A stretch of DNA of 64,000 nt from Paenibacillus sp. FSL W8-0426 (GTDB lineage Bacteria > Bacillota > Bacilli > Paenibacillales > Paenibacillaceae), in the NCBI RefSeq assembly GCF_037969725.1, contig NZ_CP150203.1, positions 202,001 through 266,000 on the forward strand, in the 5' to 3' direction. Shown in pieces: positions 4,106 to 17,737 of this stretch (position 1 is its first letter; every line of letters begins with the position of its first letter). The notes under the pieces were generated by a model. It was not told the origin of the DNA and made no database searches. It worked only from the letters and a program-made list of their open reading frames with translations. Made by a program: the position numbers and the translations under genes.

Positions 4106-5278
4106 TTGAATAGAGAAAAGTGGCGTCTCTTTCCAAAATCGGAAGGGGTCGCTCCTTATATTTTGTTAACAAATTTAATGATACCCATGTACTTTTTACT
4201 TTATGAGCCATCAAGTATACAGTGGCTTGGCTTTGTTCTGTTAGGCATATTCGTTCTATCGTTTCGACAATCCTACTTTTATACAAAGTGGGCCACGCCA
4301 ATATTGATCGTTCAGGTGGGAATACTTCTAATTTTAGCAGGTGTATTTCACCCTATGTATACGTTTATAGGTTTTATGATAGCTGCTCCGCTGAGCAAAC
4401 AAAAGCTGCCGATATTACTCTCCATAACGATCATTTTCACTGTGGCTATGGGATTTATCGCTGTTCCTTACTTGGAACGGATGGGCAGCCTAGTATGGAT
4501 AGGGCTGGTGCCTATGTTTGGCATCTGTATTCTGCCGTATATTATTCGAACTTCGACTCGCTTTCAACAGAAGTCTGCGCGGCTGCGGGCAGAAACGGCT
4601 GAACGAATGGCACAGCAGGAGGAGCGCCAGCGGATCGCGCGTGAATTACATGATACGTTGGGACATACGCTGTCATTAATTGCACTAAAAGGGGAGGTCG
4701 TTGAGAAATTGGTCAATCGTAACCCCGAGAGAGCGATCGAAGAGGCTCGTGAAATACGAGAAACGGCACGCGCAGCCTTGAAACAAATGCGTGAATTGGT
4801 TACGGAGATGAAAGTTACTTACTTCGCTGATGAATATAAGCATGCTGTATCGTTATGTTCAGCTGCAGGCATACCGCTTTTATTTCAATATCAATCGATT
4901 TCAGATCCCAGACCTTCTAATGTAGGGACGGAGGACGCTTTAGTAAACAGTCAGCTTCCTTTAACACCCTTGCAGGAGACGATTTTGGCGATGTGTTTTC
5001 GCGAGACGATTACAAATGTGGTTCGACATAGCCGAGCAACAAGTTGCAACGTTCTTCTCGACATTCAGGAAGGGGAGGTTCGTGTATCTGTACGTGATGA
5101 CGGTATTGGGGCAGATACGGAACAATTCTATACTAGCAGTAATGGCCTCGCCGGATTACGGCAACGGTTGGTTATGATCGACGGACGTATGTCGCTGTCT
5201 TCGTCCCCAGGCAAGGGGACGGAAGTCACCTTACATATACCTAGGGTAATACGAAATGAAAAGGTAGGTAGAGCTTAG
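4106..5278 (+). CDS. Sensor histidine kinase, DesK-like
   Basis: This membrane histidine kinase is of the HisKA_3 (NarX/DesK) class. Five or six hydrophobic segments fill residues about 18-148, with no large extracellular domain, so it probably senses the membrane or the neighbouring transporter. The phosphoacceptor is His182 in ARELHDTLGH. The ATPase domain has the N box ETITNVVRHSRA, DDGIGA and GLAGLRQR. The start is a TTG immediately after the permease stop, with a weak ribosome site (GGGATG), which suggests coupled translation. It should phosphorylate the next gene product. Confidence 0.88.
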   Translation: MNREKWRLFPKSEGVAPYILLTNLMIPMYFLLYEPSSIQWLGFVLLGIFVLSFRQSYFYTKWATPILIVQVGILLILAGVFHPMYTFIGFMIAAPLSKQKLPILLSITIIFTVAMGFIAVPYLERMGSLVWIGLVPMFGICILPYIIRTSTRFQQKSARLRAETAERMAQQEERQRIARELHDTLGHTLSLIALKGEVVEKLVNRNPERAIEEAREIRETARAALKQMRELVTEMKVTYFADEYKHAVSLCSAAGIPLLFQYQSISDPRPSNVGTEDALVNSQLPLTPLQETILAMCFRETITNVVRHSRATSCNVLLDIQEGEVRVSVRDDGIGADTEQFYTSSNGLAGLRQRLVMIDGRMSLSSSPGKGTEVTLHIPRVIRNEKVGRA

Positions 5279-5884
5279 ATGATTCGTATTGTTTTGGCAG
5301 AAGATCAAAAGTTATTAAGGGGAGCGCTGGCAACGTTACTCTCGTTAGAAGATGATATTGAAGTAGTCGGTCAAGCTGAAAATGGGGAAGAAGTGATGTC
5401 CATGATCCAGCAATATGAACCAGATGTAGCTGTTCTGGATATTGAGATGCCACTGAAAACCGGGTTAGATATTGCGGAATTGATTCAAAAAAATAAGTCC
5501 GCTTGTCGTGTCATCATCTTGACGACATTCGCGCGTCCCGGATATTTCCAGCGGGCGATGCAGGCAGGAGTTTATGGATATCTACTTAAAGATACGGGCA
5601 GCGATGAACTGGCTGATGCGATTCGTCGGGTCCATGATGGGAAACGTGTCATCAATTCGGAATTATCCCTCGCGGCATGGGATGATCCATGTCCATTATC
5701 ACCCAGGGAGCGTGAAGTCATGAAGTTGGCTGCCCAAGGCTTAGTTCTTCAAGATATTGGAGCACAGCTGTTTCTATCCTATGGAACGGTACGGAACTAC
5801 ATGTCCGACGCGATTGGGAAGCTCGGGGCAAATACACGGATCGAGGCAATAGATATCGCGCGCAGCAAGGGATGGCTGGATTGA
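5279..5884 (+). CDS. Response regulator, NarL/LuxR family (DesR-like)
   Basis: The receiver domain (residues 1-120) has the acidic pair E8-D9, phospho-acceptor Asp54 in LDIEMP, and Lys104-type signature LLKD. A LuxR-type helix-turn-helix follows (SPREREVMKLAAQG to about residue 200). The start codon directly follows the kinase stop, so the four genes form one unit with an autoregulated ABC exporter as the likely target. A strong terminator follows at 5949-5974. Confidence 0.9.
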   Translation: MIRIVLAEDQKLLRGALATLLSLEDDIEVVGQAENGEEVMSMIQQYEPDVAVLDIEMPLKTGLDIAELIQKNKSACRVIILTTFARPGYFQRAMQAGVYGYLLKDTGSDELADAIRRVHDGKRVINSELSLAAWDDPCPLSPREREVMKLAAQGLVLQDIGAQLFLSYGTVRNYMSDAIGKLGANTRIEAIDIARSKGWLD

Positions 5885-5948
5885 GGAGAACTGCGAGGTA
5901 TGGAGGTAAGCGGATCGCCTACTCAAGGGATGATGTTGCCAGCCCATA

Positions 5949-5974
5949 GAGAGCTTTAGAAGCTCTCCTTTTTT
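5949..5974 (+). terminator. Intrinsic terminator of the ABC/two-component operon
   Basis: Stem GAGAGCTT pairs with AAGCTCTC across a TAG loop and is followed by C and a T6 tract, 64 bases after the response-regulator stop. Confidence 0.85.
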
Positions 5975-6036
5975 AGGACCGCAACTTAGCATACCGTAAC
6001 CTAATCCATACACTCCGGCGAATTGTGGTTTTACAT

Positions 6037-6055
6037 AGCCGCGGTTCGCCTCCAT
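6037..6055 (+). repeat. att-like copy B, resembling the 3' end of ssrA
   Basis: AGCCGCGGTTCGCCTCCAT differs from copy A (2114-2132) at one base. It continues into ATGTAGT, which is also found after the ssrA fragment (CCATATGTAGT at 6874-6884). It therefore shares its left side with copy A and its right flank with the ssrA fragment, as a hybrid recombination junction might. Confidence 0.5.
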
Positions 6056-6175
6056 ATGTAGTCAGTGTCGTACTGCAAGATAGGTGAGGAGCAATTAAAC
6101 GAAAGCAAAGACAAAACAAACTTGTAAATCAGCTCCAGTTGTGTTAGAGTTAGTTCATTGGAATTTCGACCTAAG

Positions 6176-6239
6176 ATCACATATTGTAGAGGGTTAGATT
6201 TTGATTATGTAGCCTTGTACAATATGTGATTTTTTTTTG
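6176..6239 (+). promoter_or_regulatory. Long AT-rich hairpin with T run in the csp leader
   Basis: Perfect 13-base arms ATCACATATTGTA (6176-6188) and TACAATATGTGAT (6218-6230) enclose 29 bases and are followed by a T tract. It has the form of an intrinsic terminator but sits 45 bases upstream of the csp start, after a possible promoter. It could be an attenuator, an RNA thermosensor element, or the terminator of an unseen transcript. Confidence 0.5.
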
Positions 6240-6283
6240 AATTCGAAGATCATGTAAAAATAAAAATATGGAGGTAATGGATC

Positions 6284-6484
6284 ATGGCACAAGGAACAGT
6301 AAAGTGGTTTAATGCAGACAAAGGCTTTGGTTTTATCGAGGTTGAAGGCGGAGACGACGTATTTGTACACTTCAGTGCAATTGTTAGTGACGGCTTCAAA
6401 TCTTTGGATGAAGGTCAAAGAGTTGAATTTAGTGTAGTACAAGGCAATCGAGGCCCACAGGCCGAGAATGTTGTTAAACTGTAA
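6284..6484 (+). CDS. cspA: Cold-shock protein, CspA/CspB family
   Basis: This small single-stranded nucleic acid-binding protein (66 residues, normal family length) acts as an RNA chaperone. RNP1 is KGFGFIEV at 13-20 and RNP2 is VFVHF at 26-30. ATGGAGG lies upstream with proper spacing. A terminator follows directly, and the next gene encodes a YdjO-type cold-inducible protein. The unusual leader hairpin (6176-6239) may set its expression. Confidence 0.95.
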
Positions 6485-6495
6485 AGCTGTAGTAG

Positions 6496-6530
6496 AAGGT
6501 CCCGGCACTTAGTGTTGGGACTTTTTTTTC
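6496..6530 (+). terminator. Intrinsic terminator after the cold-shock gene
   Basis: Stem GGTCCCGGCAC pairs with GTGTTGGGACT across TTA and is followed by a T8 tract. Expression of the next gene then depends on readthrough or its own promoter. Confidence 0.85.
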
Positions 6531-6563
6531 GCCATTATTCCAGAAGAGAAAGAGGGATGCTGT

Positions 6564-6776
6564 TTGTACTATTCAAGGAAAAGACTGATGATTGATCTTC
6601 CAGAGGAAATGACAACGATATGGTCATGCACCAATGAAAAGTGCAACGGATGGATGAGGGATAACTTTGTCTTTTCGATTCAACCCGTTTGTGGCCAGTG
6701 TAATTCCTTCATGGAGAAGAGTGAGAAAATGCTGTCTATTTTAGCTAATACAAGCCCTAATCAGACGAAGCACTAA
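6564..6776 (+). CDS. ydjO: YdjO-family cold-inducible small zinc-ribbon protein
   Basis: The 70-residue protein begins YYSRKR and has two cysteine pairs (Cys22/Cys27 and Cys43/Cys46) placed like a zinc ribbon, plus the segment WMRDNF; this matches my recollection of the Bacillus YdjO family. The start is a TTG at 6564 with AGAGGG about eight bases upstream; the conserved N-terminus supports it over later ATG codons. Its position after csp fits a cold-shock role. The biochemical function is unknown. Confidence 0.75.
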   Translation: MYYSRKRLMIDLPEEMTTIWSCTNEKCNGWMRDNFVFSIQPVCGQCNSFMEKSEKMLSILANTSPNQTKH

Positions 6777-6811
6777 TAGTGAGGACCAGTGACATCAAAA
6801 ATGTCACACTA

Positions 6812-6876
6812 CTACACACCCGTAGAAGCCTATGTTGCGTTATCTTCGGACAGGGGTTCGACTCCCCTCGCTTCCA
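6812..6876 (+). pseudogene. ssrA: 3' fragment of the tmRNA gene
   Basis: The segment from about CCCGTAGAAGCC to CTTCCA reads like the last 65 bases of a Firmicute tmRNA. It has a ...TTCGGACAGGGGTTCGACTC T-arm with AGGGG/CCCCT stem and the acceptor strand ending TTCCA. The tag-coding region and 5' domain are absent. This is what is left when an element integrates into the 3' end of ssrA and duplicates it. The left edge is uncertain. The full ssrA would lie outside this window. Confidence 0.65.
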
Positions 6877-6889
6877 TATGTAGTAAGTC

Positions 6890-6927
6890 AAAGAGCCATC
6901 GACCAGTCATCTGGTTGGTGGCTCTTT
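6890..6927 (+). terminator. ssrA-type intrinsic terminator
   Basis: AAAGAGCCATCGACCAG pairs with CTGGTTGGTGGCTCTTT across TCAT with one G-T type mismatch. It directly follows the ssrA fragment and resembles the hairpin at 2143-2177. A TATAAT-like box (GATATAATAAG, from 6930) comes immediately after and may serve the next operon. Confidence 0.85.
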
Positions 6928-6968
6928 ATGATATAATAAGCGTAATTATAAAGATGGAGGGATTCAAG

Positions 6969-7166
6969 ATGCTTTCAAATCGAGAACAGCTCCAAGAAAT
7001 TCTTAAAAAAGCTAACCAACATGCACGCAAGCAAGCCAAAGAATCAGGTGCATCAATATATTATATAAAAAATAATAAACGTATACGAGAAGATGCAGAA
7101 GGTAATAAATTCGAGATCGTTTTTGATGCAACCGGCAACCGGCGGGAGTTAGAGTATAATGAATGA
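6969..7166 (+). CDS. Small protein, putative antitoxin partner of the zeta-like toxin
   Basis: The 65-residue protein is basic, with a helical, Lys/Gln-rich N-terminal half and a C-terminal stretch FEIVFDATGNRRELEYNE that looks like a short beta hairpin. I do not recognise a named family. The start at 6969 follows GATGGAGG; an upstream in-frame ATG at 6789 would read through the ssrA fragment and is rejected. It overlaps the next gene by eight bases (ATGAATGA), the usual layout of an antitoxin before its toxin. It does not resemble the classical epsilon antitoxin. Confidence 0.65.
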   Translation: MLSNREQLQEILKKANQHARKQAKESGASIYYIKNNKRIREDAEGNKFEIVFDATGNRRELEYNE

Positions 7167-7734
7167 TACCCGACCCATTATGACGGTTTTTGCAGGTACC
7201 AATGGGGCTGGCAAAAGCACAATTAGCTTGCAGATGAGAGAATGGCTAGGTGAGCTAGTTGACCCAGACCAGATTGCACGAGAATTAAACCCTGATGATC
7301 CAAGAGGTGCCGATTTGTCAGCAGGACGGGAAGCAGTAAAAAGAATTCGTTCCCTTATCAAGGGAAGACACCCCTTTGCTATTGAAACGACATTATCAGG
7401 TACATTTGTTTTGAAGCATATGCAAATTGCCAAAGATGCCGGATATAAGATTGTCATGTATTATATCGGCCTCCAAGATGTCCAAATGCATATAGATCGT
7501 GTGGCTTCTCGTGCCGAGCAAGGTGGACATTGGATTGCTGAAGAGGATATTCGTTTTCGGTATGGTCAGTCGTTACAAAATCTTAAACCTGCTTTAGCCA
7601 TCGCAGAACAGGTTACCATCATCGATAATACATACGAGCCTTCGATTGTTGCTGAAATCATAAACGGTAATTTGCTTTATTGTGTGGAGTCAATACCTGA
7701 TTGGTCCAGAACTGTGCTTGTAAGGTACAGATGA
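7159..7734 (+). CDS. Zeta-toxin-like P-loop kinase
   Basis: The 191-residue protein has Walker A GTNGAGKST at 13-21, a VDPDQIARELNP segment, ETTLSG, and the Arg/Gly-rich stretch RAEQGGHWIAEEDI followed by an R-x-R-Y pattern, all typical of zeta/PezT-like proteins. Classical members phosphorylate UDP-N-acetylglucosamine and poison wall synthesis; whether this one does is inferred. It overlaps the small upstream gene, consistent with a toxin-antitoxin pair, and lies just downstream of the ssrA scar, a common place for island-maintenance modules. Short chromosomal members of the family may have other substrates. Confidence 0.75.
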   Translation: MNDTRPIMTVFAGTNGAGKSTISLQMREWLGELVDPDQIARELNPDDPRGADLSAGREAVKRIRSLIKGRHPFAIETTLSGTFVLKHMQIAKDAGYKIVMYYIGLQDVQMHIDRVASRAEQGGHWIAEEDIRFRYGQSLQNLKPALAIAEQVTIIDNTYEPSIVAEIINGNLLYCVESIPDWSRTVLVRYR

Positions 7735-7760
7735 TTAATTAGTTGCCAGTAAAACTGTGA

Positions 7761-7988
7761 CTACACGTAGAACCGTTCGCAGTGGATAAGTAACCCTTCA
7801 AAAACATCGCCATCTACTGTTTCCACTCGAACAAGTGCATTAGCATGGCTTTTACATATGTTTGCTATATGATCGTGAAAGGATTTTAAGTTATGCATAG
7901 TAGTTGGATCCATTCGAAACAGTGTTTGTTCTTGTTGTCCCTGCAGTTGTAAGCTCATGGTTTTGATCTCCAGCTTAGATTCATTCAT
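7761..7988 (-). CDS. Small hypothetical protein
   Basis: A 75-residue frame on the minus strand, convergent with the zeta-like gene. The C-terminal part VRVETVDGDVFEGLLIHCER looks like a folded beta-rich segment, and the composition is protein-like. The ribosome site GGAGAA lies very close to the ATG, which weakens the start. No family recognised. Confidence 0.45.
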   Translation of the reverse strand: MNESKLEIKTMSLQLQGQQEQTLFRMDPTTMHNLKSFHDHIANICKSHANALVRVETVDGDVFEGLLIHCERFYV

Positions 7989-8518
7989 TTCTCCATTGTA
8001 TGCAGAAGCCTATAGGGAGTGACGAATCTGTGTATGAGATTTTCTGGGGAAAAATGCAGGAGATCATGGAGAATGCACATCCAGCGTATTGTCGATCAGC
8101 CAAACACAATAACTCGCAGTTCGTTGCAGGCACCTAAACGGTGGACCTGCTCTTTTTATGCCCAAAATCGCAAAAAGGAGCGAGGAATTCCATGAAATCA
8201 ACTATTTATGTACATGTATCTTCAGATCGGTAAGCATAGAAAGAACGGTCCTTCCCAACTTGGAAGCTTCCTGGCATCTGTCGAAGTAAGACTGTATGGT
8301 CGCTTGAACGCTTTGCTGAACGATTCGGAAGTTTCGTAACCTGATTCGAGAGCAAATTTGTATGTATGGAAAATTCATACGGAATGGAGTTCCGGTGATA
8401 GCGATCACCTCTGCGAACACCCATTTAATTTTTTCCCCCACTGGTATTCGTCTATACAGCAGTGAAGTTTGATGAATATGCTCTTGTATCTGAGACCCAA
8501 GGGGAGAGATGAATATCA
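7989..8518. other. Gene-poor region upstream of the phosphonate operon
   Basis: No intact gene seen. A strong ribosome site (AAAAAGGAG) leads to ATG at 8192, but the frame stops after 13 codons (MKSTIYVHVSSDR), so this may be a decayed gene start or a leader peptide. A weak hairpin GCAGG...CCTGC followed by a T tract lies near 8126-8157. Fragments in different frames across 8220-8510 look protein-like but are interrupted. The operon promoter must lie here; I could not place it confidently. Confidence 0.4.
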
Positions 8519-9247
8519 ATGTCGATTGGGAAAATGAGGAAGTACAAGGAGATGTTGAGGAACCCTGTCCTGCGTCCATATTTGCCTGAAACTCATCGGA
8601 TGACGAAATCAAGGACCTTAAGGATGCTGAAAACCCATTCATCCCTCTTTATAAAACCTAATCACGGGAGCGGCGGTAGCGGAATCATCCGAGTCAAGAG
8701 ACTAAGAAGGGGATTTGAGGTACGGTGCGGCTCAAGTCGGAAAATGGTTCGACGTTCCTCAGTCCTCAAAGTGATTCATTCTTACCGGAAATCAAAGCAT
8801 CGGTATTTGGTGCAGAAAGGCCTGCGATTAGCGAAGTATCATGGGGTGATCTTTGATATCCGTGTATACCTGCAGAAGCCAAAGAATCATTGGATGATTG
8901 CGGGTATGGTCGCCCGTGTTGCCGCACCTCATAAGTTTGTGACCAATTATCATAAAGGGGGGCATGCCAAATCTTTGCGAAGGGTCCTCTTTAGTATTTT
9001 CAAGCATAACCATGCCAAAGTGAATGCCTATGAGCGCAAAATAAAAAAACTATCCATTTCCATCGCCAAAACAGTGAATAAGTGGCATTCCATTCATGAA
9101 CTAGGGGTTGATCTTGCCATAGACAAGAAAGGCCGGATTTGGATCATTGAAGCTAATTCGCATCCGGGTCATATGCTGTTTACTCAGCTCTCCGATCGCA
9201 CAATGATCAGGACGATTATGGCAAACAAACGATCCATCGGAATATAA
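8519..9247 (+). CDS. YheC/YheD-like ATP-grasp protein (first copy)
   Basis: The 242-residue protein has ATP-grasp features: the nucleotide-binding Lys46 in FIKPNHGSGGSGI, DIRVYLQK in the middle, and the metal-binding end GVDLAIDKKGRIWIIEANSHPG. These match the YheC/YheD family of endospore coat-associated proteins. It is shorter than those I know (about 350-450 residues) because the N-terminal domain is missing, and it is strongly basic. The start follows AAGGGGAGAG. The next gene, PEP mutase, is 42 bases downstream on the same strand. ATP-grasp enzymes join a carboxylate to an amine, so it could couple aminoethylphosphonate to a carboxyl acceptor; that role is inferred. Confidence 0.8.
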   Translation: MSIGKMRKYKEMLRNPVLRPYLPETHRMTKSRTLRMLKTHSSLFIKPNHGSGGSGIIRVKRLRRGFEVRCGSSRKMVRRSSVLKVIHSYRKSKHRYLVQKGLRLAKYHGVIFDIRVYLQKPKNHWMIAGMVARVAAPHKFVTNYHKGGHAKSLRRVLFSIFKHNHAKVNAYERKIKKLSISIAKTVNKWHSIHELGVDLAIDKKGRIWIIEANSHPGHMLFTQLSDRTMIRTIMANKRSIGI

Positions 9248-9289
9248 GCTCCATATTGATGATTGCAATGGGAAGGGGAAAAGTTTCAA

Positions 9290-10189
9290 ATGAAAAAAAC
9301 AAAGGAGCTTAGAAACCTGATCAACTCCGATAAGCTGGGGTTTATTATGGAGGCTCATAATGGCCTGTCTGCCAAAATTGTTGAGGAGGCAGGTTTTAAA
9401 GGGATTTGGGCCAGCGGTTTATCGATCTCTGCAGCGATGGGAGTAAGGGATAATAACGAAGCCTCCTGGACTCAGGTGCTGGATGTTCTGGAATTCATGA
9501 GCGACGCAACGTCCATTCCGATTCTAATGGATGGGGATACAGGATACGGCAACTTCAATAATGCAAGACGCCTGGTCAAAAAGCTGGAGCAGCGGGATAT
9601 TGCAGGGGTATGTATTGAAGATAAGCAATTTCCGAAAATGAACTCTTTCATAAACGGCCAATTGCAGCCAATGGCCGATATCGATGAATTTTGCGGCAAA
9701 ATCAAGGCGATGAAAGATACGCAAATGGACGATGATTTTTTGGTTGTAGCCAGAGTAGAGGCATTTATTACGGGCAGAGGGCTTGACGAGGCGCTGCGGC
9801 GGGCTGAAGCATACCGGAAGGCAGGTGCCGATGCGGTGCTCATCCACAGCAAACGGCCGGATATTATGGAGATTGAGGCGTTCATGAAGGAATGGGCGGG
9901 AAGATTACCCGTAGTCATCGTGCCTACGAAGTATTATCTGACTCCAACCGACAAGTTTCGGGAACTGGGGATTAGCCTTGTCATTTGGGCCAACCATAAT
10001 TTGAGATCATCCATCAAAGTCATGAAACAAGTATCCCGCAAAATTTATCAGGAAGAGAGCCTTGCCCATATCGAAAAAGATGTTGCGACACTGGACGAAG
10101 TATTCGGGCTTCAAGGGGCAGAGGAACTGCAGGCCGCGGAACAAAAATATCTCCCGGCGCCGAACTCCGGCTCGAATGAGGGAATATGA
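9290..10189 (+). CDS. aepX: Phosphoenolpyruvate mutase
   Basis: It rearranges phosphoenolpyruvate to phosphonopyruvate, making the C-P bond that starts nearly all phosphonate pathways. The 299-residue protein carries the diagnostic EDKX5NS motif ([10 protein letters not shown], 110-119), which separates true PEP mutases from isocitrate lyase-like relatives, plus DGDTGYG at 81-87. I chose ATG 9290 because GGAAGGGGA lies 11 bases upstream; an in-frame ATG at 9263 lacks a site and adds nine non-conserved residues. The next gene overlaps its stop. The equilibrium favours PEP, so the following decarboxylase is needed to pull the reaction forward. Confidence 0.93.
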
Positions 10190-11349
10190 TGGACACGAGA
10201 ATTTTTGGAGAAGAGCTCCGTAATTTAGGATTTACCTTTTTCAGCGGTGTACCCTGCTCCTACCTGAAAAATTTAATCAATTATGCCATCAACGAAACCG
10301 ATTACGTTGCAGCGGCCAATGAAGGGGATGCGGTTGCCATCGCATCCGCTGCTTCTCTAGGAGGGCAGAAATCCGTTGTACTTATGCAAAACTCAGGGTT
10401 AACCAACGCTGTTTCGCCGCTATCTTCCCTGATCCACCCCTTTCGAATTCCACTGCTTGGGTTTGTCAGCCTTCGCGGAGAGCCGGGTGTTCCCGACGAG
10501 CCTCAACATGAACTTATGGGCAGGATCACGACACAGCTGCTGGAATTGATGGAGGTGGAGTGGCAGTATCTCTCCAAAGATTTGGAGGAGGCCCGGAAGC
10601 AGCTGATTCACGCCAATGAGCAAATTGCCCGGAATCGACCGTTCTTCTTTGTAGTCAAGAAAGGGACCTTTGACGCTGAGCCTTTGAAAAAGCTACAAAA
10701 CTCCACTCATTCCAACCAGATCATACGGCATGCCCATAAAGACAATCAGATGCCGGCACGATATGAGGCATTAGCCGTAATCAATGCGGTGAAAGACAGG
10801 GACACGGTACAGCTTGCTACCACAGGCAAGACAGGACGGGAATTATATGAAATTGAAGATGCAGGCAACAATTTGTATATGGTGGGCTCTATGGGGTGTA
10901 TCGGTTCTTTTGGACTTGGGCTCGCCCTGAGTCAGCCTGGCAAAAATATCGTCGTGATTGACGGAGACGGTTCTTTATTGATGCGTATGGGAAGCTTGGC
11001 GACAAATGGGTACTACAACCCGAGCAATATGATTCATGTTCTTCTCGATAATAACGCTCACGAATCGACAGGCGGACAGAGCACGGTATCCCATAATGTT
11101 GATTTCGTAAACATTGCTGCTTCCTGCGGTTATACGAAGTCGATCCATGTCCACAACCTCGAAGAACTGAAAGCTTGTTTGCAACAATGGAAAGAGTCTA
11201 AAGGACTTACTTTCCTGTATTTAAAAATATCCAAGCAGTCCAAGGCACAGCTCGCTCGCCCGAGCATAAAGCCTCACGAAGTAAGAGAACGCCTACAGCG
11301 ATTTATCCAGAACGATTCCGTAAAGATCAAGGAAGTGGATGGCTCATGA
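10186..11349 (+). CDS. aepY: Phosphonopyruvate decarboxylase
   Basis: This thiamine diphosphate enzyme converts phosphonopyruvate to phosphonoacetaldehyde and makes the pathway irreversible. The 387-residue protein has the conserved cofactor glutamate Glu46 (AANEGDAV) and the cofactor motif beginning GDGS at 260-263 and ending in Asn289-Asn290. Its start overlaps the PEP mutase stop (ATGATGG), and its own stop overlaps the transaminase start, so the three are tightly coupled. Confidence 0.93.
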
Positions 11350-12446
11350 GTTCTGCCGTAAAGAGAAACATTTTGCTGACCCCCGGTCCGGCAACGACTA
11401 CAGAAAGTGTGAAATGGTCACAGGTCGTTCCGGACATATGCCCTCGCGAGGCTGAATTTGGCGAGGTGATGGAGCATATTTCCACAGAGCTCACCCGCTT
11501 GGTTGCGGATCCGGACCATTATCAAACCGTATTGTTTGGCGGGTCGGGCACGGCAGCCGTTGAATCCATGATCAGCTCCGTCCCGGATAACGAAGCCATG
11601 ATCATTGTCAATAATGGCGCTTATGGGAAACGGATGTGCGAGATCGCCAAGGTCTATGGAATCGATTATTTAGAATTCAGGAGTCCCTTTGATGATGCTA
11701 TTAATATAGATGCATTAGAGGAGTGCATCCGCTCCTCCGACCGCATGATTTCTCATCTCGCTGTAGTCCATCATGAGACCACAACCGGCCTTCTGAACAA
11801 GGTGAAGGATATTGGCTTGTTATGCCAAAAGTATCATATCAACATGATGGTGGACGCGATGAGTTCATTTGCTGCGATCCCGATTCAAATGAAAGAAATG
11901 AACATTTCGTTTCTCGCATCAAGTTCCAATAAGAATTTGCAGGGAATGCCCGGGGTTTCGTTCGTGATTGCAGAAAAAAGCAAATTGGATCATTTGAAAG
12001 GCAGGAAACCACGAAATTATTATTTGAATTTGTACGCCCAATATCAATATTTCGCTGAAAATGCGCAAATGCGGTTTACACCGCCGGTACAGACTTTGTA
12101 CGCGCTCAGGCAAGCCATTCAGGAATTAAAGCAGGAAGGCGTGGCACAGCGTTACGATCGATACAAGGCATCCTGGAAAACCTTAATCACTGGTCTGACC
12201 AGGCTGGGATTAACCTATCTCGTTCCAGAAGAGCATCATTCCAAGATCATAACCTCCATTCATGAACCTTATGCAGGTTATGATTTTCAATCCATGCATG
12301 ATTATTTCTACAGCAAAGGCATTATGATTTATCCCGGCAAACTAGATGAACTGAAGACGTTCCGGATTGCCAATATCGGGGATATTACGTCCAAGGATAT
12401 CGAGGTGTTTTTGGAATTGCTTGAAAATTATTTAGGCAGCATTTAA
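11346..12446 (+). CDS. phnW: 2-aminoethylphosphonate:pyruvate transaminase
   Basis: This PLP-dependent class V aminotransferase interconverts phosphonoacetaldehyde and 2-aminoethylphosphonate (AEP). The 366-residue protein has the N-terminal LLTPGPATTT, Asp170 in MMVDAMSSF, and the probable PLP lysine Lys196 in SSSNKNLQG. PhnW is often catabolic, but here it follows aepX and aepY with ATGA overlap and no phosphonatase (PhnX) gene is present, so it should run in the direction of AEP synthesis. Confidence 0.92.
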   Translation: MSSAVKRNILLTPGPATTTESVKWSQVVPDICPREAEFGEVMEHISTELTRLVADPDHYQTVLFGGSGTAAVESMISSVPDNEAMIIVNNGAYGKRMCEIAKVYGIDYLEFRSPFDDAINIDALEECIRSSDRMISHLAVVHHETTTGLLNKVKDIGLLCQKYHINMMVDAMSSFAAIPIQMKEMNISFLASSSNKNLQGMPGVSFVIAEKSKLDHLKGRKPRNYYLNLYAQYQYFAENAQMRFTPPVQTLYALRQAIQELKQEGVAQRYDRYKASWKTLITGLTRLGLTYLVPEEHHSKIITSIHEPYAGYDFQSMHDYFYSKGIMIYPGKLDELKTFRIANIGDITSKDIEVFLELLENYLGSI

Positions 12447-12471
12447 GTGAACATGAGAAAGGCGGAGTCCC

Positions 12472-13212
12472 ATGGGATCGGTGACAAAAAATAAATGGTT
12501 GAAATATTTGCTTTTGAAGAAGTATGGCCCCCTTGCTCCTTACGTACCCACAACGAAAAGGATGAGCCGACATTCCTTCTGGGCTCTTCTGCGAAAATAC
12601 CGGCATGTCATTGTTAAACCGGTATGGGGGAGTCGCGGTCGGGGAGTCATTCAAGTCTCGTATTTGGGTAATGACAAGTTTGCCATACACTACGAGAACG
12701 TGAGAAAAGTGATTCAAGGAAAAAAGAATATTTATCGTTATATCCGAAAAAAAATAGGGTCTGCCGATTACATGGTTCAACGGAGAATTAATCGCCCGAC
12801 CATCAACAAACGTCCCTTTGATATGAGAGTCATCGTTCAACGGAAACACCACTCATCCCGATGGGTAGTTACGGGAAAGGTGATCAAGGTTGCGGGCAAA
12901 GGTTATATTGTGTCCAATAATACCCGGAGTAAGGGGAAATTGCTTAGGTTTAGGTCGGGTATTCGGAGGTCATCCATTAGGCGTTTGTCTGTCTCCGGTT
13001 TGGAATCCAAAATCGATGGAGTTTCAATTCTTTCCGCTAGGAGATTAGGAGCCTTTTTTCCCGGGCACCGTATTTATGGCCTCGACATTGCAACAGATCA
13101 GCGAGGGCATGTATCCATTATTGAAGCCAACCTTTATCCGGCCATGTCACATTTCCGTAAGCTAAAGGATAGAAGGGTGTATCGGCGAATACTCTCATAT
13201 AAGAGAGGTTGA
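12472..13212 (+). CDS. YheC/YheD-like ATP-grasp protein (second copy)
   Basis: The 246-residue protein is the same type as the gene at 8519: KPVWGSRGRGVIQV for nucleotide binding, DMRVIVQRKHHS in the middle, and GLDIATDQRGHVSIIEANLY with the metal-binding Glu-x-Asn. It too lacks the usual N-terminal domain and is very Arg/Lys-rich. Identity with the first copy is only moderate by eye, so they may handle different substrates or act in series. It lies 25 bases after phnW and is followed by a terminator, so it closes the operon. A bracketing pair of ATP-grasp proteins suggests AEP is further conjugated. Confidence 0.8.
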   Translation: MGSVTKNKWLKYLLLKKYGPLAPYVPTTKRMSRHSFWALLRKYRHVIVKPVWGSRGRGVIQVSYLGNDKFAIHYENVRKVIQGKKNIYRYIRKKIGSADYMVQRRINRPTINKRPFDMRVIVQRKHHSSRWVVTGKVIKVAGKGYIVSNNTRSKGKLLRFRSGIRRSSIRRLSVSGLESKIDGVSILSARRLGAFFPGHRIYGLDIATDQRGHVSIIEANLYPAMSHFRKLKDRRVYRRILSYKRG

Positions 13213-13289
13213 TATACAGCCAATGCGTTAGGATTGGAAGTCGCAGAAGGTACTGAGCTAAGCCGAGAATTTGTATGTTAAAGCAAAGA

Positions 13290-13323
13290 AAAAGGAGAAC
13301 TGTCATTGCAGTCCTCCTTTTTT
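13290..13323 (+). terminator. Intrinsic terminator of the phosphonate operon
   Basis: AAAGGAGAACTG pairs with CAGTCCTCCTTT around TCATTG and is followed by a T tract. It also lies at the 3' end of the convergent small membrane-protein gene. Confidence 0.8.
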
Positions 13324-13328
13324 ACGAT

Positions 13329-13505
13329 TCATTGCTTTTTGGTAGGCATTTTTATTACAAAGAATAAGATCGATAAGGCAAACAGAGCATGTGAGGTTGT
13401 AACCAATAATCTATAACCCTCACCTAGGTCCTTTATACCGAAGAGAATATTAATTAAGGATACCAAACCTGTAATTATAAGTATCACCAGTGCGAGTAGG
13501 TACAT
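13329..13505 (-). CDS. Small two-segment membrane protein
   Basis: A 58-residue hydrophobic protein with two membrane segments (MYLLALVILIITGLVSLI and, after a short KDLGEGYR loop, a second one) and a Lys-rich end. I chose the start at 13505, preceded by AAGGGGG at good distance; the longer frame reaching 13646 has a Cys-rich, non-membrane extension without a ribosome site. No family recognised. Confidence 0.65.
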   Translation of the reverse strand: MYLLALVILIITGLVSLINILFGIKDLGEGYRLLVTTSHALFALSILFFVIKMPTKKQ

Positions 13506-14146
13506 GTTTAGTCCCCCTTGAAGATTGACAACTTGGTTTTCCAACCTTGGGTAGTAACATCCGCCTAACATGAGCGCTAGTAAAAGCCGGTAAAGAGAAT
13601 GAGGACAACAAGAGTGTGGATAGTTGTTACAGGAATATAATAGCATTCAGCGTTTTATTTGTATATATATGTAAAAATAAACGAGTTCGTTGAGTTCTCG
13701 CAGCTTGAAAAGGATTCTGGGGATGTGGAAACAATGCATTAGGACTAGCATTCAAAAATCAAGGAGCAGATGAATGCTCACTCTGTATACGGAGCACAAG
13801 GTATAAAATTGCATTTGTTGAATCGGAAGAATCCCATGAGTCTATCCCGGCATATCATTGATACATATATGGGAATTTCAACACGACTATACAAGGCTCA
13901 GCTTCTTCCTGAACATTTCGACTAGAACATTAGGTGCCCATTTTCCGCTTTGTGATATAATATCCGTAAATTACTAATTAGAGGGCGAAGATACTTTTAA
14001 ATAATGACTGCTTTAAGAAATTCCAAAGAAAGCAAATCTTTAGTATGCTCTCAGGAATTTTAGTACCGTGAGTGAACCCAAGCCATGTGTCCTGTATATC
14101 CGGATAGAGAATTGACTCACGAACAGACTAAAAAGGAGTAGTTCCA
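13506..14146. other. Intergenic region with one doubtful short frame
   Basis: No clear gene. An ATG at 13770 just after AAGGAG opens 51 codons to 13925; the product has no recognisable features and may be spurious. A TATAAT box (TGATATAATATCC, from about 13953) could serve the gene at 14147. Confidence 0.4.
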
Positions 14147-15073
14147 TTGGATCCTTATCTATATTTGTTTTTTCATGTCTTATCACATGCCGTTCTTGGG
14201 GCAGCAATTGCATGCTGCTTTTTGCCAAAGAATAGTTGGAAGGACCGTATGATCGGCCTATGTTCAGGTGCATTGTGTGGTGTAATTCCTGATATTTTTG
14301 GGGACAGAAGTATAGCCCCATGGTCGCATTCTGTATTGATTGCCCCATTTTTAGCTTTAGGTGTAGCATTTTTGACAAAACTGTTCTATAAAAAGACATC
14401 TTTCAAGTTAATTTGGGGATCATCTACTTTGTCTGTTTGGTTTGGACACTTGCTTCTTGACTATATGGGACATGATCTACCAGCATTTTATCCAGTTAAC
14501 GACAAGTCCTATATTATGGGGGCTATTACATTGGGAGACCCATGGATATGGTTTCCGTTAGTTGTCGGTCTTGGATGGAGCTTTTTCTTAAAAAACAAGC
14601 CTAGATTACCTGTAATAACCTCAATAATATTCGTAGTGATATATTTAATTTTCCGAGTAATGGCAAAAGAGATAATCGAACATAAAGTGCAAGTTCAGTA
14701 TCCTGTTTCCGAAAAGTCATATATAACAGTAGAGCCTGATAGTCATTATGAGTTTCCGTTAAACCCCAGCGAATGGTTAAAGTTCAGGTTTGAAATTATT
14801 AGTTCTCATTATTCAAGAGGTGGGGATGCAGGTTTTTTGGGGGAGAAATCGGATGTGCTACTTTGGTACGATTTTTATCCAGTTGCGCGTGATATTACCA
14901 TAATGAATGGAAAACATAGTTTGATGTATTCGGCCGAGTCTAAAGTTAGTCTTTCCGTTACTGACGAATGGACAGAAGCTGGTCTCAACTTTATTAGGGG
15001 AGAGTATGAGGGTAATCAGCTTACCTTCAAACAAACGGAAAACGGTCAGTGGGAGGAAGTTCTATCGAAATAG
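14147..15073 (+). CDS. Membrane-bound YdjM/DUF457-like putative metal-dependent hydrolase
   Basis: The 308-residue protein has an N-terminal half of about four membrane segments with conserved polar motifs facing them: HVLSHAVLG near residue 10, PDIFGDRS, WSHSV, and HLLLDYMGHD. These His/Asp patterns resemble the DUF457/YdjM family of membrane-bound putative hydrolases. The second half (from about 175) is soluble, beta-rich and not recognised. The start is TTG 14147 with AAGGAG eight bases upstream. The family call is moderate and the substrate unknown. Confidence 0.6.
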   Translation: MDPYLYLFFHVLSHAVLGAAIACCFLPKNSWKDRMIGLCSGALCGVIPDIFGDRSIAPWSHSVLIAPFLALGVAFLTKLFYKKTSFKLIWGSSTLSVWFGHLLLDYMGHDLPAFYPVNDKSYIMGAITLGDPWIWFPLVVGLGWSFFLKNKPRLPVITSIIFVVIYLIFRVMAKEIIEHKVQVQYPVSEKSYITVEPDSHYEFPLNPSEWLKFRFEIISSHYSRGGDAGFLGEKSDVLLWYDFYPVARDITIMNGKHSLMYSAESKVSLSVTDEWTEAGLNFIRGEYEGNQLTFKQTENGQWEEVLSK

Positions 15074-15289
15074 TTTGACGACTGATCCTGGCCTGACGAA
15101 ATTATAAAACGCAGCGGGTAGCAAAGTACTTCCACCATGACATGAATCTTGGTGATTACTCCGTTGTGCTACGTCTGGCGGCTTTCTGCTCATACCTATG
15201 TTCGATTATGGCATTTTTCTTGAAGGCCAGATCTTCTCCTCACGCAATTCTAGTGAAGTATATAATTGTAGATTGGCTGGTGAATCTCA

Positions 15290-15652
15290 ATGGGTGGAAA
15301 ATCCTGGCTAGTGGTGCAATATCCATTGAAAAGTGCAAAAGGCAACCAGCGTGACCAATGGTTAAAAGAGAAGGTAACGGAATGTTTGGAGAGCTCCCTC
15401 GCCAATGCTGACCTGGGATATGTCGATGGTTCAGATATGGGGAGGTGCGTTTCCGACCCCAAAAAGTATGCGCTTAATATATTTTGTGTAGTTACAGAGG
15501 AGGAACAGAGCATAGCTTTGGTGAAGAGAGTTTTAAGAGAGAGCAGGCTCGACCATACACGAATTCAAATAGCCACCATGCCCTATGGAGAAGAAGAGAC
15601 CTATACGCTGAAATATGGCTATAAAAAAGGGGTTGCCGACTTTTCTCTTTAG
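15290..15652 (+). CDS. Hypothetical protein
   Basis: A 120-residue soluble protein with alternating helix and strand character (WLVVQYPLKS, an amphipathic helix, IFCVVTEEEQSIALVKRVL). The layout suggests a small alpha/beta fold. GGTG before the ATG is a poor ribosome site. It lies 59 bases before the polysaccharide deacetylase gene on the same strand. Not recognised. Confidence 0.5.
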   Translation: MGGKSWLVVQYPLKSAKGNQRDQWLKEKVTECLESSLANADLGYVDGSDMGRCVSDPKKYALNIFCVVTEEEQSIALVKRVLRESRLDHTRIQIATMPYGEEETYTLKYGYKKGVADFSL

Positions 15653-15711
15653 CGTAATTTGGAGAAGTAAAAGAGCGTTGGCAGGATGTATAAGAGAGGA
15701 GACACTCATAA

Positions 15712-16338
15712 ATGGGGAAATTATCGTTGGTAGAACAGGTTAACGTTGGGGAAAAGGTAGTTGCCTTCACATTTGACGATGGACCGCACCCGGTATATAC
15801 GTATCAGTTGCTTGAGATCTTCCGCGGCGCGGGTGGACGGGCGACCTTTTTTATGATTGGTCAGGAAATGGAAGCGCATCCAGATCTTGCGGCGGCTGTG
15901 CACCGTGAAGGGCACGAGATCGCCAACCACACCTATTCGCATCCCGATCTGACCAAACTGACGCTGGAGACAGCCAGAGAGGAGCTATTGCGGACAGAGG
16001 AGCTCATCCGAGAGGTCACGGGGGAAACGGCACGGATCTTCAGGCCGCCTTATTTCGGGGTGAATGATGACATTCTGTCCCTGGCTGCGGAGCGTGGATA
16101 CCAGACGATCGGAGCGGTCAATGGCGGGGCAAAGGATTGGGAGAATCCTGGCATCGAGTATATTGTCGAGCACACAAGGCCAACCGTCAGGCCGGGCAGC
16201 ATCTTGATCTTCCATGACGGATACGGGGAGCGCTCCCAGACGGTGGAGGCTGTCCGGACATTGGTCAAGGAACTGGCCGCAGAGGGGTATCGCTTTGTCA
16301 CGGTCAGTGAACTGCTGGACATGGCAGCTTGTACGTGA
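15712..16338 (+). CDS. Polysaccharide deacetylase (NodB homology domain)
   Basis: The 208-residue protein is a bare NodB domain of the CE4 family, which removes acetyl groups from N-acetylglucosamine polymers or peptidoglycan. The motifs are in order: TFDDGP (Asp22, Asp23), HxxxH metal ligands His73 and His77 in NHTYSH, RPPYF at 111-115, and ILIFHDG near the end. No signal peptide is seen, unusual for a wall-acting enzyme, so it is cytoplasmic or exported some other way. GAGGAGA lies before the ATG. Confidence 0.9.
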   Translation: MGKLSLVEQVNVGEKVVAFTFDDGPHPVYTYQLLEIFRGAGGRATFFMIGQEMEAHPDLAAAVHREGHEIANHTYSHPDLTKLTLETAREELLRTEELIREVTGETARIFRPPYFGVNDDILSLAAERGYQTIGAVNGGAKDWENPGIEYIVEHTRPTVRPGSILIFHDGYGERSQTVEAVRTLVKELAAEGYRFVTVSELLDMAACT

Positions 16339-16480
16339 AGCGGCGAACAAGCGACGAATGGACACCATCTTAGGTGTCCGTTTTTGTATTTGCGAATATC
16401 GTCCATGGTATTTACTCGCAAACTTTGCCCGGCACCGCTCTCAGATGATAAGCTGATACAAACTGCATTAGGAGGAGACA

Positions 16481-17737
16481 ATGGACTTTATCAGAAATCA
16501 ACTAGACGGATTTGGCATCAACGAACCTGCCATTGGATATCTCTCGAATATGATCATGGTCGTTTTTATCGCCGTGGTCTCGGTACTGGCTAATTTTATC
16601 GCAAAGAGAATCGTGCTGCGGACGATCCTTCATATCGTCAATAACCATCGATTCAAATGGGGCCACATCATCGTGGAGAAAAAATTGTTCCACAAGCTGT
16701 CGCATCTCGTTCCGGCCATCATTATCTATTATTCCGCGAGTCTTTTTCCGACTTATCAAGCGTTGATTGAAAAGGCTGCGATGACTTACCTGATCGTCGT
16801 GACCATCACCGTGCTGAATGCATTTCTTAATGCGTTTGAGGCGATCTATCGCTCGTTTGAGGTTTCCAAAATTCGCCCGATCAAAGGATATATCCAGGTT
16901 GCCAAGATTATTCTTTTCATCATCGGAGGCATTATCGTCATTTCGAGCCTGATCGGTCAGAATCCATTAATCATTCTCAGCGGGCTTGGCGCGTTATCGG
17001 CCGTATTGATGCTGGTCTTTAAAGACTCCATCCTAGGCCTTGTGGCTGGCGTTCAGCTATCGTCGAATGATATGGTGCGCGTAGGCGATTGGATTGAGAT
17101 GCCGAAATATAATGCGGACGGCGACGTAATCGATATTACCCTAAACACGGTAAAGGTGATGAATTTCGATAAAACGATTACGATGATTCCGAGCTACGCT
17201 TTGATTTCGGATTCGTTCAGGAACTGGAGAGGCATGCAGGTATCCGGCGGACGAAGGATTAAGCGAAGCTTTTATATCGATATCAGCAGCATCCGTTTCT
17301 GCACCGAGGAAATGATCAGCGAATTTCAGAAGATCCACTACCTTACGGATTATATAACGACAAAATTAAATGAGATCCAAGCGTACAACCTTGAACATGA
17401 AATCAATACGGAAAGCAATGTGAACGGCAGGCAACTTACGAATGTGGGCGTATTCAGAGAGTACATCCATCAGTATCTTCGGAATCATCCCAAAATCAAT
17501 CAGAACATGACGATGATCGTCAGACAGTTGGCGCCGGGAGACACGGGGCTACCGCTTGAAGTATACGCATTTAGCAATGATACCAACTGGGGAGTATATG
17601 AATCGATTCAAGCCGATATCTTTGACCATATTTTCGCCGTTGCGCCGACGTTCGGGCTGCGTGCGTTCCAAAACCCAACGGGGCACGATATTGCGCAGCT
17701 TAAGGACAGCAGGGAATTTTCGCGAGGGTACTCATAA
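16481..17737 (+). CDS. Mechanosensitive ion channel, MscS family (YbdG-like)
   Basis: The 418-residue membrane protein has about five hydrophobic segments in residues 20-190. The pore helix is ILSGLGALSAVLMLVFKDSI, and the MscS beta domain begins at VRVGDWIEMP. A long C-terminal cytoplasmic part with an insertion resembles YbdG/YnaI-type channels. It protects against osmotic downshift. GGAGGAG precedes the ATG and a terminator follows at 17789. Confidence 0.9.
   Translation: MDFIRNQLDGFGINEPAIGYLSNMIMVVFIAVVSVLANFIAKRIVLRTILHIVNNHRFKWGHIIVEKKLFHKLSHLVPAIIIYYSASLFPTYQALIEKAAMTYLIVVTITVLNAFLNAFEAIYRSFEVSKIRPIKGYIQVAKIILFIIGGIIVISSLIGQNPLIILSGLGALSAVLMLVFKDSILGLVAGVQLSSNDMVRVGDWIEMPKYNADGDVIDITLNTVKVMNFDKTITMIPSYALISDSFRNWRGMQVSGGRRIKRSFYIDISSIRFCTEEMISEFQKIHYLTDYITTKLNEIQAYNLEHEINTESNVNGRQLTNVGVFREYIHQYLRNHPKINQNMTMIVRQLAPGDTGLPLEVYAFSNDTNWGVYESIQADIFDHIFAVAPTFGLRAFQNPTGHDIAQLKDSREFSRGYS

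Follow-up and report, generated by a model that had tools for sequence, protein, structure and literature searches.

A five-gene Paenibacillus unit that may make 2-aminoethylphosphonate and spend it in amide bonds formed by YheC/D-type ATP-grasp proteins

Several described systems resemble the gene unit reported here, which lies at 8519-13212 of a 64,000-nucleotide stretch of the Paenibacillus sp. FSL W8-0426 genome (NZ_CP150203.1, positions 202,001 to 266,000; hereafter the window) and joins three genes for 2-aminoethylphosphonate (AEP) synthesis to two genes for YheC/D-type ATP-grasp proteins, AG1 and AG2. The relevant passages of PMC6697681 describe a crystallised T. denticola protein in which the AEP aminotransferase PhnW is fused to a nucleotidyltransferase (PntC-PhnW), and those of PMC11867202 establish ATP-grasp phosphonopeptide ligases for phosphonoalanine. 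The B. subtilis yheC and yheD genes are sigma-E genes raised by SpoIIID (relevant passages of PMC517825), and YheD is described in the corresponding passages of PMC7911427 as a shell-forming protein of the spore to which no function has been assigned. Within Paenibacillus, a three-gene AEP operon is reported on an insert in clinical P. thiaminolyticus isolates (PMC9765702), and P. polymyxa CR1 and E681 are listed with phnW, ppd and pepM, with a degradation or storage reading (PMC4209062); the relevant passages of these two papers mention no ATP-grasp neighbour. No description of an AEP-YheC/D pairing was found in the literature searched, an earlier remark in the amidoligase review by Iyer and others being possible, and among papers combining ATP-grasp and aminoethylphosphonate none, by title, concerns YheC/D or Bacilli. 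We propose, at a probability of roughly 55%, that the window holds a self-contained unit that synthesises AEP and consumes it by forming amide bonds, with AG2 in place of activation by cytidine monophosphate (CMP).

The unit consists of five genes:

8519-9247, + strand: AG1, 242 amino acids (aa), isoelectric point (pI) 11.56, PF14398, in a clade of its own and directly upstream of aepX; likely amide ligase.
9290-10189, + strand: aepX, phosphoenolpyruvate (PEP) mutase, 299 aa from its ATG, without the C-terminal extension of other AEP loci.
10186-11349, + strand: aepY, phosphonopyruvate decarboxylase (TIGR03297).
11346-12446, + strand: phnW (aepZ), 2-aminoethylphosphonate aminotransferase (TIGR03301).
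12472-13212, + strand: AG2, 246 aa, pI 11.57, short YheC/D-type ATP-grasp protein carrying H227; proposed AEP-amide ligase.

The collinear layout given in the initial annotation is confirmed, with gaps of 42 and 25 bases at the two ends and two ATGA overlaps (-4) inside, all on the + strand; a longer start for aepX is available at a TTG at 9263. All three enzymes of the trio exceed their NCBIfam cut-offs, with AepX scoring 384.9 bits against the PEP mutase model TIGR02320 (cut-off 319.55), AepY 413.2 bits against TIGR03297 (312.5) and PhnW 392.4 bits against the PhnW-AepZ model TIGR03301 (360.8); PhnW also passes NF010006 (344.8, cut-off 296) and falls below TIGR02326 (338.8 of 400.8). The window AepX contains EDKXXXXXNS, given as the PEP-mutase motif in the relevant passages of PMC6697681. 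The trio should therefore make AEP, as had been proposed from the open reading frames (ORFs), and this assignment is supported at the family level. AG1 and AG2 match PF14398 with 200.5 and 160.6 bits (cut-off 26.8). The window's genome is a single contig of 6.9 Mb, and the closest named record is Paenibacillus sp. JJ-223 (L043), whose AepX is identical.

The association of the trio with the two ligase genes recurs throughout the genus. AepX was found at E 1e-40 or better in 16 of 75 Paenibacillus genomes, ten of which have a close, unfused trio, and in all ten AG1 lies directly upstream and AG2 downstream, about 3.2 kb from the aepX start. AG2 orthologues of at least 336 bits occur in those ten genomes and in none of the 65 others, the next score being 214 bits; the AG1 profile gives at least 442 bits in nine of these module genomes and 281 in G021. 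Among the AepX genomes that lack the unit, four (L224, L228, L229 and L230) have no YheC/D gene at the locus, and in two more (G003 and G012) the inspected region spans only 3.9 kb. The window's genome has 12 YheC/D matches, and a chance neighbourhood of such common genes is rejected by the ten-of-ten pattern together with the separate clades of AG1 and AG2 described below. One of its YheC/D genes (L009, G000:C1:5702518-5703198) contains three in-frame stops and is apparently decayed. Elsewhere, the AG1 of P. tyrfis MSt1 (L057 9250-9985) is split into two frames and the AepY of Paenibacillus sp. P25 (L068 10897-12040) into three, reflecting either decay or sequencing errors. A plasmid search returned 28 records, every one below 60% identity.

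We examined the pairing more widely in two sets of loci, labelling genes by phmmer with a custom query set rather than curated models and counting a YheC/D ORF as adjacent if it shared the strand of the trio and was no more than 600 bp away. The contig-database set retained 80 of 111 AepX loci, of which 61 have the whole trio and 19 are incomplete and were left uncounted. The class set derives from 398 evenly sampled Bacilli genomes, with AepX at 37 places in 35 genomes; 30 places outside the genus with at least 70% identity were fetched, which with the window's own locus gives 31, four of them without the full trio, the places omitted being five at 43-51% identity outside the genus and one inside it (G003). 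Six genomes are in both sets (L062/L194, L065/L196, L067/L199, L069/L200, L091/L218 and L095/L202). A locus was scored for a cytidylyltransferase-type domain if it matched the N-terminal part of the L071 PhnW or the C-terminal extension of the L071 AepX; this extension has no Pfam domain and in G032 weakly matches the PhnW N-terminal query. Where such a domain is lacking, an adjacent YheC/D gene is found at 41 of 46 trio loci of the contig set (30 of AG2 type) and 19 of 22 of the class set, compared with 0 of 15 and 1 of 5 where it is present. AG2 scores at least 300 bits in 20 of the 398 Bacilli genomes, with at most six candidates scored per genome, and all 20 have a strong AepX; the weaker AG2-like genes of AEP-free genomes have no shared partner genes. 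Two AEP loci coexist in one Aneurinibacillus genome, namely a complete trio with no ATP-grasp gene beside it (L067 10001-13070 = L199) and an AepX-AepY pair with an AG2-like gene and no PhnW (L065 = L196).

A FastTree built from 180 YheC/D domains places AG1 in one clade and AG2 in another; 50 of its 177 inner branches have support below 80 (second copies of doubly sampled genomes and L043 were dropped from this and the AepX tree). The AG2 clade (44 rows, support 90) has 42 members directly after phnW, the other two coming from G367, where AepX is on another contig; the AG1 clade (34 rows, support 99) has 26 members before aepX, and the remainder are an AG1 paralogue. Trio neighbours of other YheC/D lineages occur in Cohnella, Chengkuizengella and a Bacillaceae/Sporosarcina group. 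In Gorillibacterium timonense PhnW and AG2 form a single 623 aa frame (L091 12046-13917), and a second fusion of the same make-up (621 aa, 52% identity) is present on a 2 kb contig; L071 has PhnW fused to a nucleotidyltransferase. By the usual fusion argument the PhnW-AG2 proteins, which mirror PntC-PhnW, suggest that AEP is a substrate of AG2, as it is of the cytidylyltransferase. A further protein, P0081 (764 aa), is a fusion of AepY and PhnW. A co-occurrence search of the kind put forward with the initial annotation thus finds the pairing both in the genus and in other Bacilli, and its view that the ATP-grasp genes belong with the trio is borne out by the ten module genomes, the two locus sets and the PhnW-AG2 fusions.

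The usual routes of AEP consumption were not found in the window's genome. The locus contains no AEP cytidylyltransferase, and a search with one query (E 1e-8) gave no match in nine of the ten module genomes, the window's included; the matches in G032 are located in its second, fused locus. PhnX remains below cut-off in the window's genome (best 41.8 of 220 bits) and passes in one of the ten module genomes, and the C-P lyase protein PhnJ, present in one of the ten, has no match there. The absence of a cytidylyltransferase and of PhnX, noted earlier for the locus, thus extends, with one query for the cytidylyltransferase, to the whole genome and is joined by that of PhnJ. With the trio present, AEP would be made here and its common outlets are not found.

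The alignments of AG1 and of AG2 both retain DxR, the Asp preceding ExN, and ExN, which we take to be the ATP-grasp catalytic residues. The PF14398 match begins at residues 4 and 6, so the proteins comprise the ATP-grasp part alone and have neither the classical length nor a region ahead of it; six other YheC/D proteins of this genome measure 295-485 aa, and in an example from L079 the domain spans residues 108-364 of 427. Among the 45 non-overlapping window ORFs of at least 150 aa no other product is as basic, the next having a pI of 9.71, and the two carry net charges of about +44 and +48; their description as basic and N-terminally short is upheld. In the AG2 lineage H227 sits in an SHF motif after ExN; of the 55 after-phnW rows, the 11 belonging to other lineages were viewed separately from the main alignment for this residue, as were 12 of the 29 rows that adjoin no trio. 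The predicted AG2 model resembles ArgX/LysX, RimK and the tubulin ligases TTL/TTLL at 16-21% identity, AG2 being shorter than the matched chains, and it would thus be an ATP-grasp ligase of LysX/ArgX fold. A profile search of PDB sequences gave TTLL6 only (E 0.0025) for AG2 and no match for AG1.

In the pathway we propose, AepX would convert PEP to phosphonopyruvate, AepY would decarboxylate this to phosphonoacetaldehyde, and PhnW would transaminate the latter to AEP. AG2 would then use ATP to turn a carboxylate into an acyl phosphate that the AEP amine attacks, giving R-CO-NH-CH2CH2-PO3; AEP has no carboxylate and should therefore be the nucleophile. This step is suggested by the close coupling of the genes, by the fusion of AG2 to PhnW and by the chemistry of ATP-grasp enzymes, and we consider it probable that the unit forms an AEP amide. 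AG1, we infer, either adds another amide bond to this product or supplies the prepared acceptor or donor. The acceptor may be an acidic peptide or protein, because of the charge of the ligases and because the predicted fold of AG2 is nearest to enzymes acting on peptides and proteins, and its probable location would be the mother cell during sporulation, which would make an exporter unnecessary. An acidic polypeptide as acceptor is a tentative assignment, rated somewhat below even odds, and the spore is a plausible site of the product. We know of no pathway for an amide-linked phosphonate on protein.

The leading alternative, which we hold to be possible and rather unlikely, is that AG1 and AG2 add one or two amino acids to AEP to give a small diffusible phosphonopeptide, as PnaC and PnaB do for phosphonoalanine tripeptides. 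A PEP mutase with two ATP-grasp ligases is the plan of the phosphonoalamide clusters (relevant passages of PMC11867202), and the unit is patchy in the genus (10 of 75 genomes). Some relatives, moreover, have a radical SAM enzyme of the KamA family and between three and five YheC/D ORFs per trio (L079 5078-13215, L080, L084, L086, L088, L193, L197 and L205), which fits an unusual amino acid and suggests a modular chemistry with room for a beta-amino acid; the KamA of L079, the sole one scanned, passes the TIGR00238 subfamily model and none of the Lys, Glu or Arg equivalogs. The evidence on the acceptor is divided, charge and fold leaning towards an acidic peptide or protein and the KamA clusters and phosphonoalamide precedent towards a small peptide.

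A second kind of AEP cluster combines ligases with nucleotidyl activation (L061 5889-14911, L066, L069, L071, L072, L216 and L217, with L070 cut at a contig end). It contains a COOH-NH2 ligase (PF14395)-YheC/D fusion of 876-908 aa, a MurF-like ligase, AepX with or without the C-terminal extension, AepY, a nucleotidyltransferase-PhnW protein and a NUDIX protein.

A number of observations weigh against amide ligation of AEP to a polypeptide as set out above. First, 5 of 46 and 3 of 22 domain-free trio loci have no AG gene within 600 bp, so that the case named in the initial annotation as a refutation, a trio lacking ATP-grasp neighbours, does occur in this minority; at L057, L087 and L099, moreover, the neighbouring AG ORF is short or split. 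Secondly, some YheC/D gene lies within 7 kb at 7 of 15 and 4 of 5 cytidylyltransferase-type loci, so that a YheC/D gene does not in itself preclude nucleotidyl activation; these genes are of another kind, mostly the COOH-NH2 ligase fusion. Thirdly, the cytidylyltransferase label changes only three times on an AepX tree of 85 loci, which provides between one (starred branches) and three independent pairs; few events therefore underlie the either/or pattern, and the notion of cytidylyltransferase and AG as strict alternatives is weakened. Fourthly, an AG1 paralogue free of AEP genes is present in the P. polymyxa clade (such a paralogue, at 374-392 bits, is found in eight genomes that lack the trio and, in seven that have it, lies roughly 9 kb away from the unit), and we reject AG1 as exclusive to AEP. 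Fifthly, high pI is general among the YheC/D proteins of this genome (9.7-10.2 in six longer ones), and H227 is missing in the 11 after-phnW rows of other lineages and present in 4 of the 12 further rows not beside a trio, three of these in AepX genomes. Sixthly, the KamA-like enzymes of related clusters are as compatible with a small peptide as with a protein. Finally, no acceptor gene was found in or near the unit, including any LysW-like acidic small ORF (30-130 aa, more than 24% D+E) at window 5000-17000; the conserved block upstream of AG1 matches no sporulation sigma pattern tried; and the spore link from SpoIVA, found in 268 of the 398 Bacilli genomes and in all 20 with AG2, is weak because SpoIVA is already in 67% of the sample.

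The region around the AG1 paralogue (L222 13339-14118, L225 7947-8729 and L226 7995-8777) is syntenic with or without the AEP unit (L222 compared with L225 and L226), and the unit probably entered next to the paralogue in the P. polymyxa clade.

Two further explanations fare worse. That AEP serves phosphate storage or catabolism, with the AG genes as unrelated spore genes flanking it by chance, follows the interpretation given to the P. polymyxa CR1 and E681 genes (relevant passages of PMC4209062), but the high-scoring AG2 orthologues that were found all come from trio genomes, two sequences show AG2 fused to PhnW, and neither PhnX above cut-off nor a PhnJ match is present in the window's genome, which together make it improbable. 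Least probable of all is activation of AEP by a cytidylyltransferase elsewhere in the genome for transfer to lipids or glycans, with the AG proteins separate: CMP-AEP activation is the common route (relevant passages of PMC6697681) and G032 has both kinds of locus, but the PhnW-fused type is unmatched in nine of ten module genomes, with one query that leaves remote types possible.

Features flanking the unit are as follows:

8451-8483, + strand: conserved block upstream of AG1 in eight aligned Paenibacillus sequences (window included); tentatively a promoter or operator.
13289-13322, strand not assigned: hairpin with a 14-pair stem listed on the - strand and a T-rich end on the + strand; probable bidirectional terminator after AG2.

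The terminator call rests on stem length alone because the overall scan gave three terminator-like sites compared with 4.8 expected in shuffles. Among 19 upstream sequences, promoter matches were found only in L046 (loose sigma-E, sigma-K), L054 (loose sigma-E) and L051 (sigma-F, sigma-A), and upstream of the window's unit none of the sporulation promoter patterns tried gave a match. A zeta-toxin-like protein (PF06414) is encoded at 7159-7734, 0.8 kb upstream of the unit.

If the proposal is correct, amide ligation would join CMP activation as another main fate of AEP, and the unit would mark spore formers, including P. polymyxa relatives, Cohnella and Thermoactinomyces, as likely phosphonate producers. 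The repeated tight pairing of YheD relatives with one defined amine also offers a direct substrate guess for a poorly understood family. More speculatively, and with the odds against it, YheC/D proteins could be amide ligases that dress acidic spore-surface polypeptides with small amines, the AEP branch giving amide-linked phosphonates on some spores and a beta-amino acid being added too in the KamA clusters.

Compared with known systems, the unit shares its AEP enzymes with the pnt clusters (PEP mutase, PntC and PhnW; relevant passages of PMC6697681), and here too the proposed AEP-using enzyme is the one beside or fused to PhnW, but no cytidylyltransferase was found in the unit or, with one query, in the genome, and ATP-grasp proteins take its place. 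With the phosphonoalamide clusters (PMC11867202, compared by organisation from its relevant passages) it shares a PEP mutase and two ATP-grasp ligases, but the head group there is phosphonoalanine, whereas here it would be AEP, an amine without a carboxylate, and the ligases are of PF14398. The resemblance of AG2 to LysX/ArgX, RimK and TTL/TTLL is one of predicted fold. YheC and YheD of Bacillus spores belong, like AG1 and AG2, to PF14398 (the family of the B. subtilis proteins) and are also from spore formers; AG1 and AG2 differ from them in being about 245 aa long, in consisting of the ATP-grasp part only, in their place in an AEP operon and, in the AG2 lineage, in H227.

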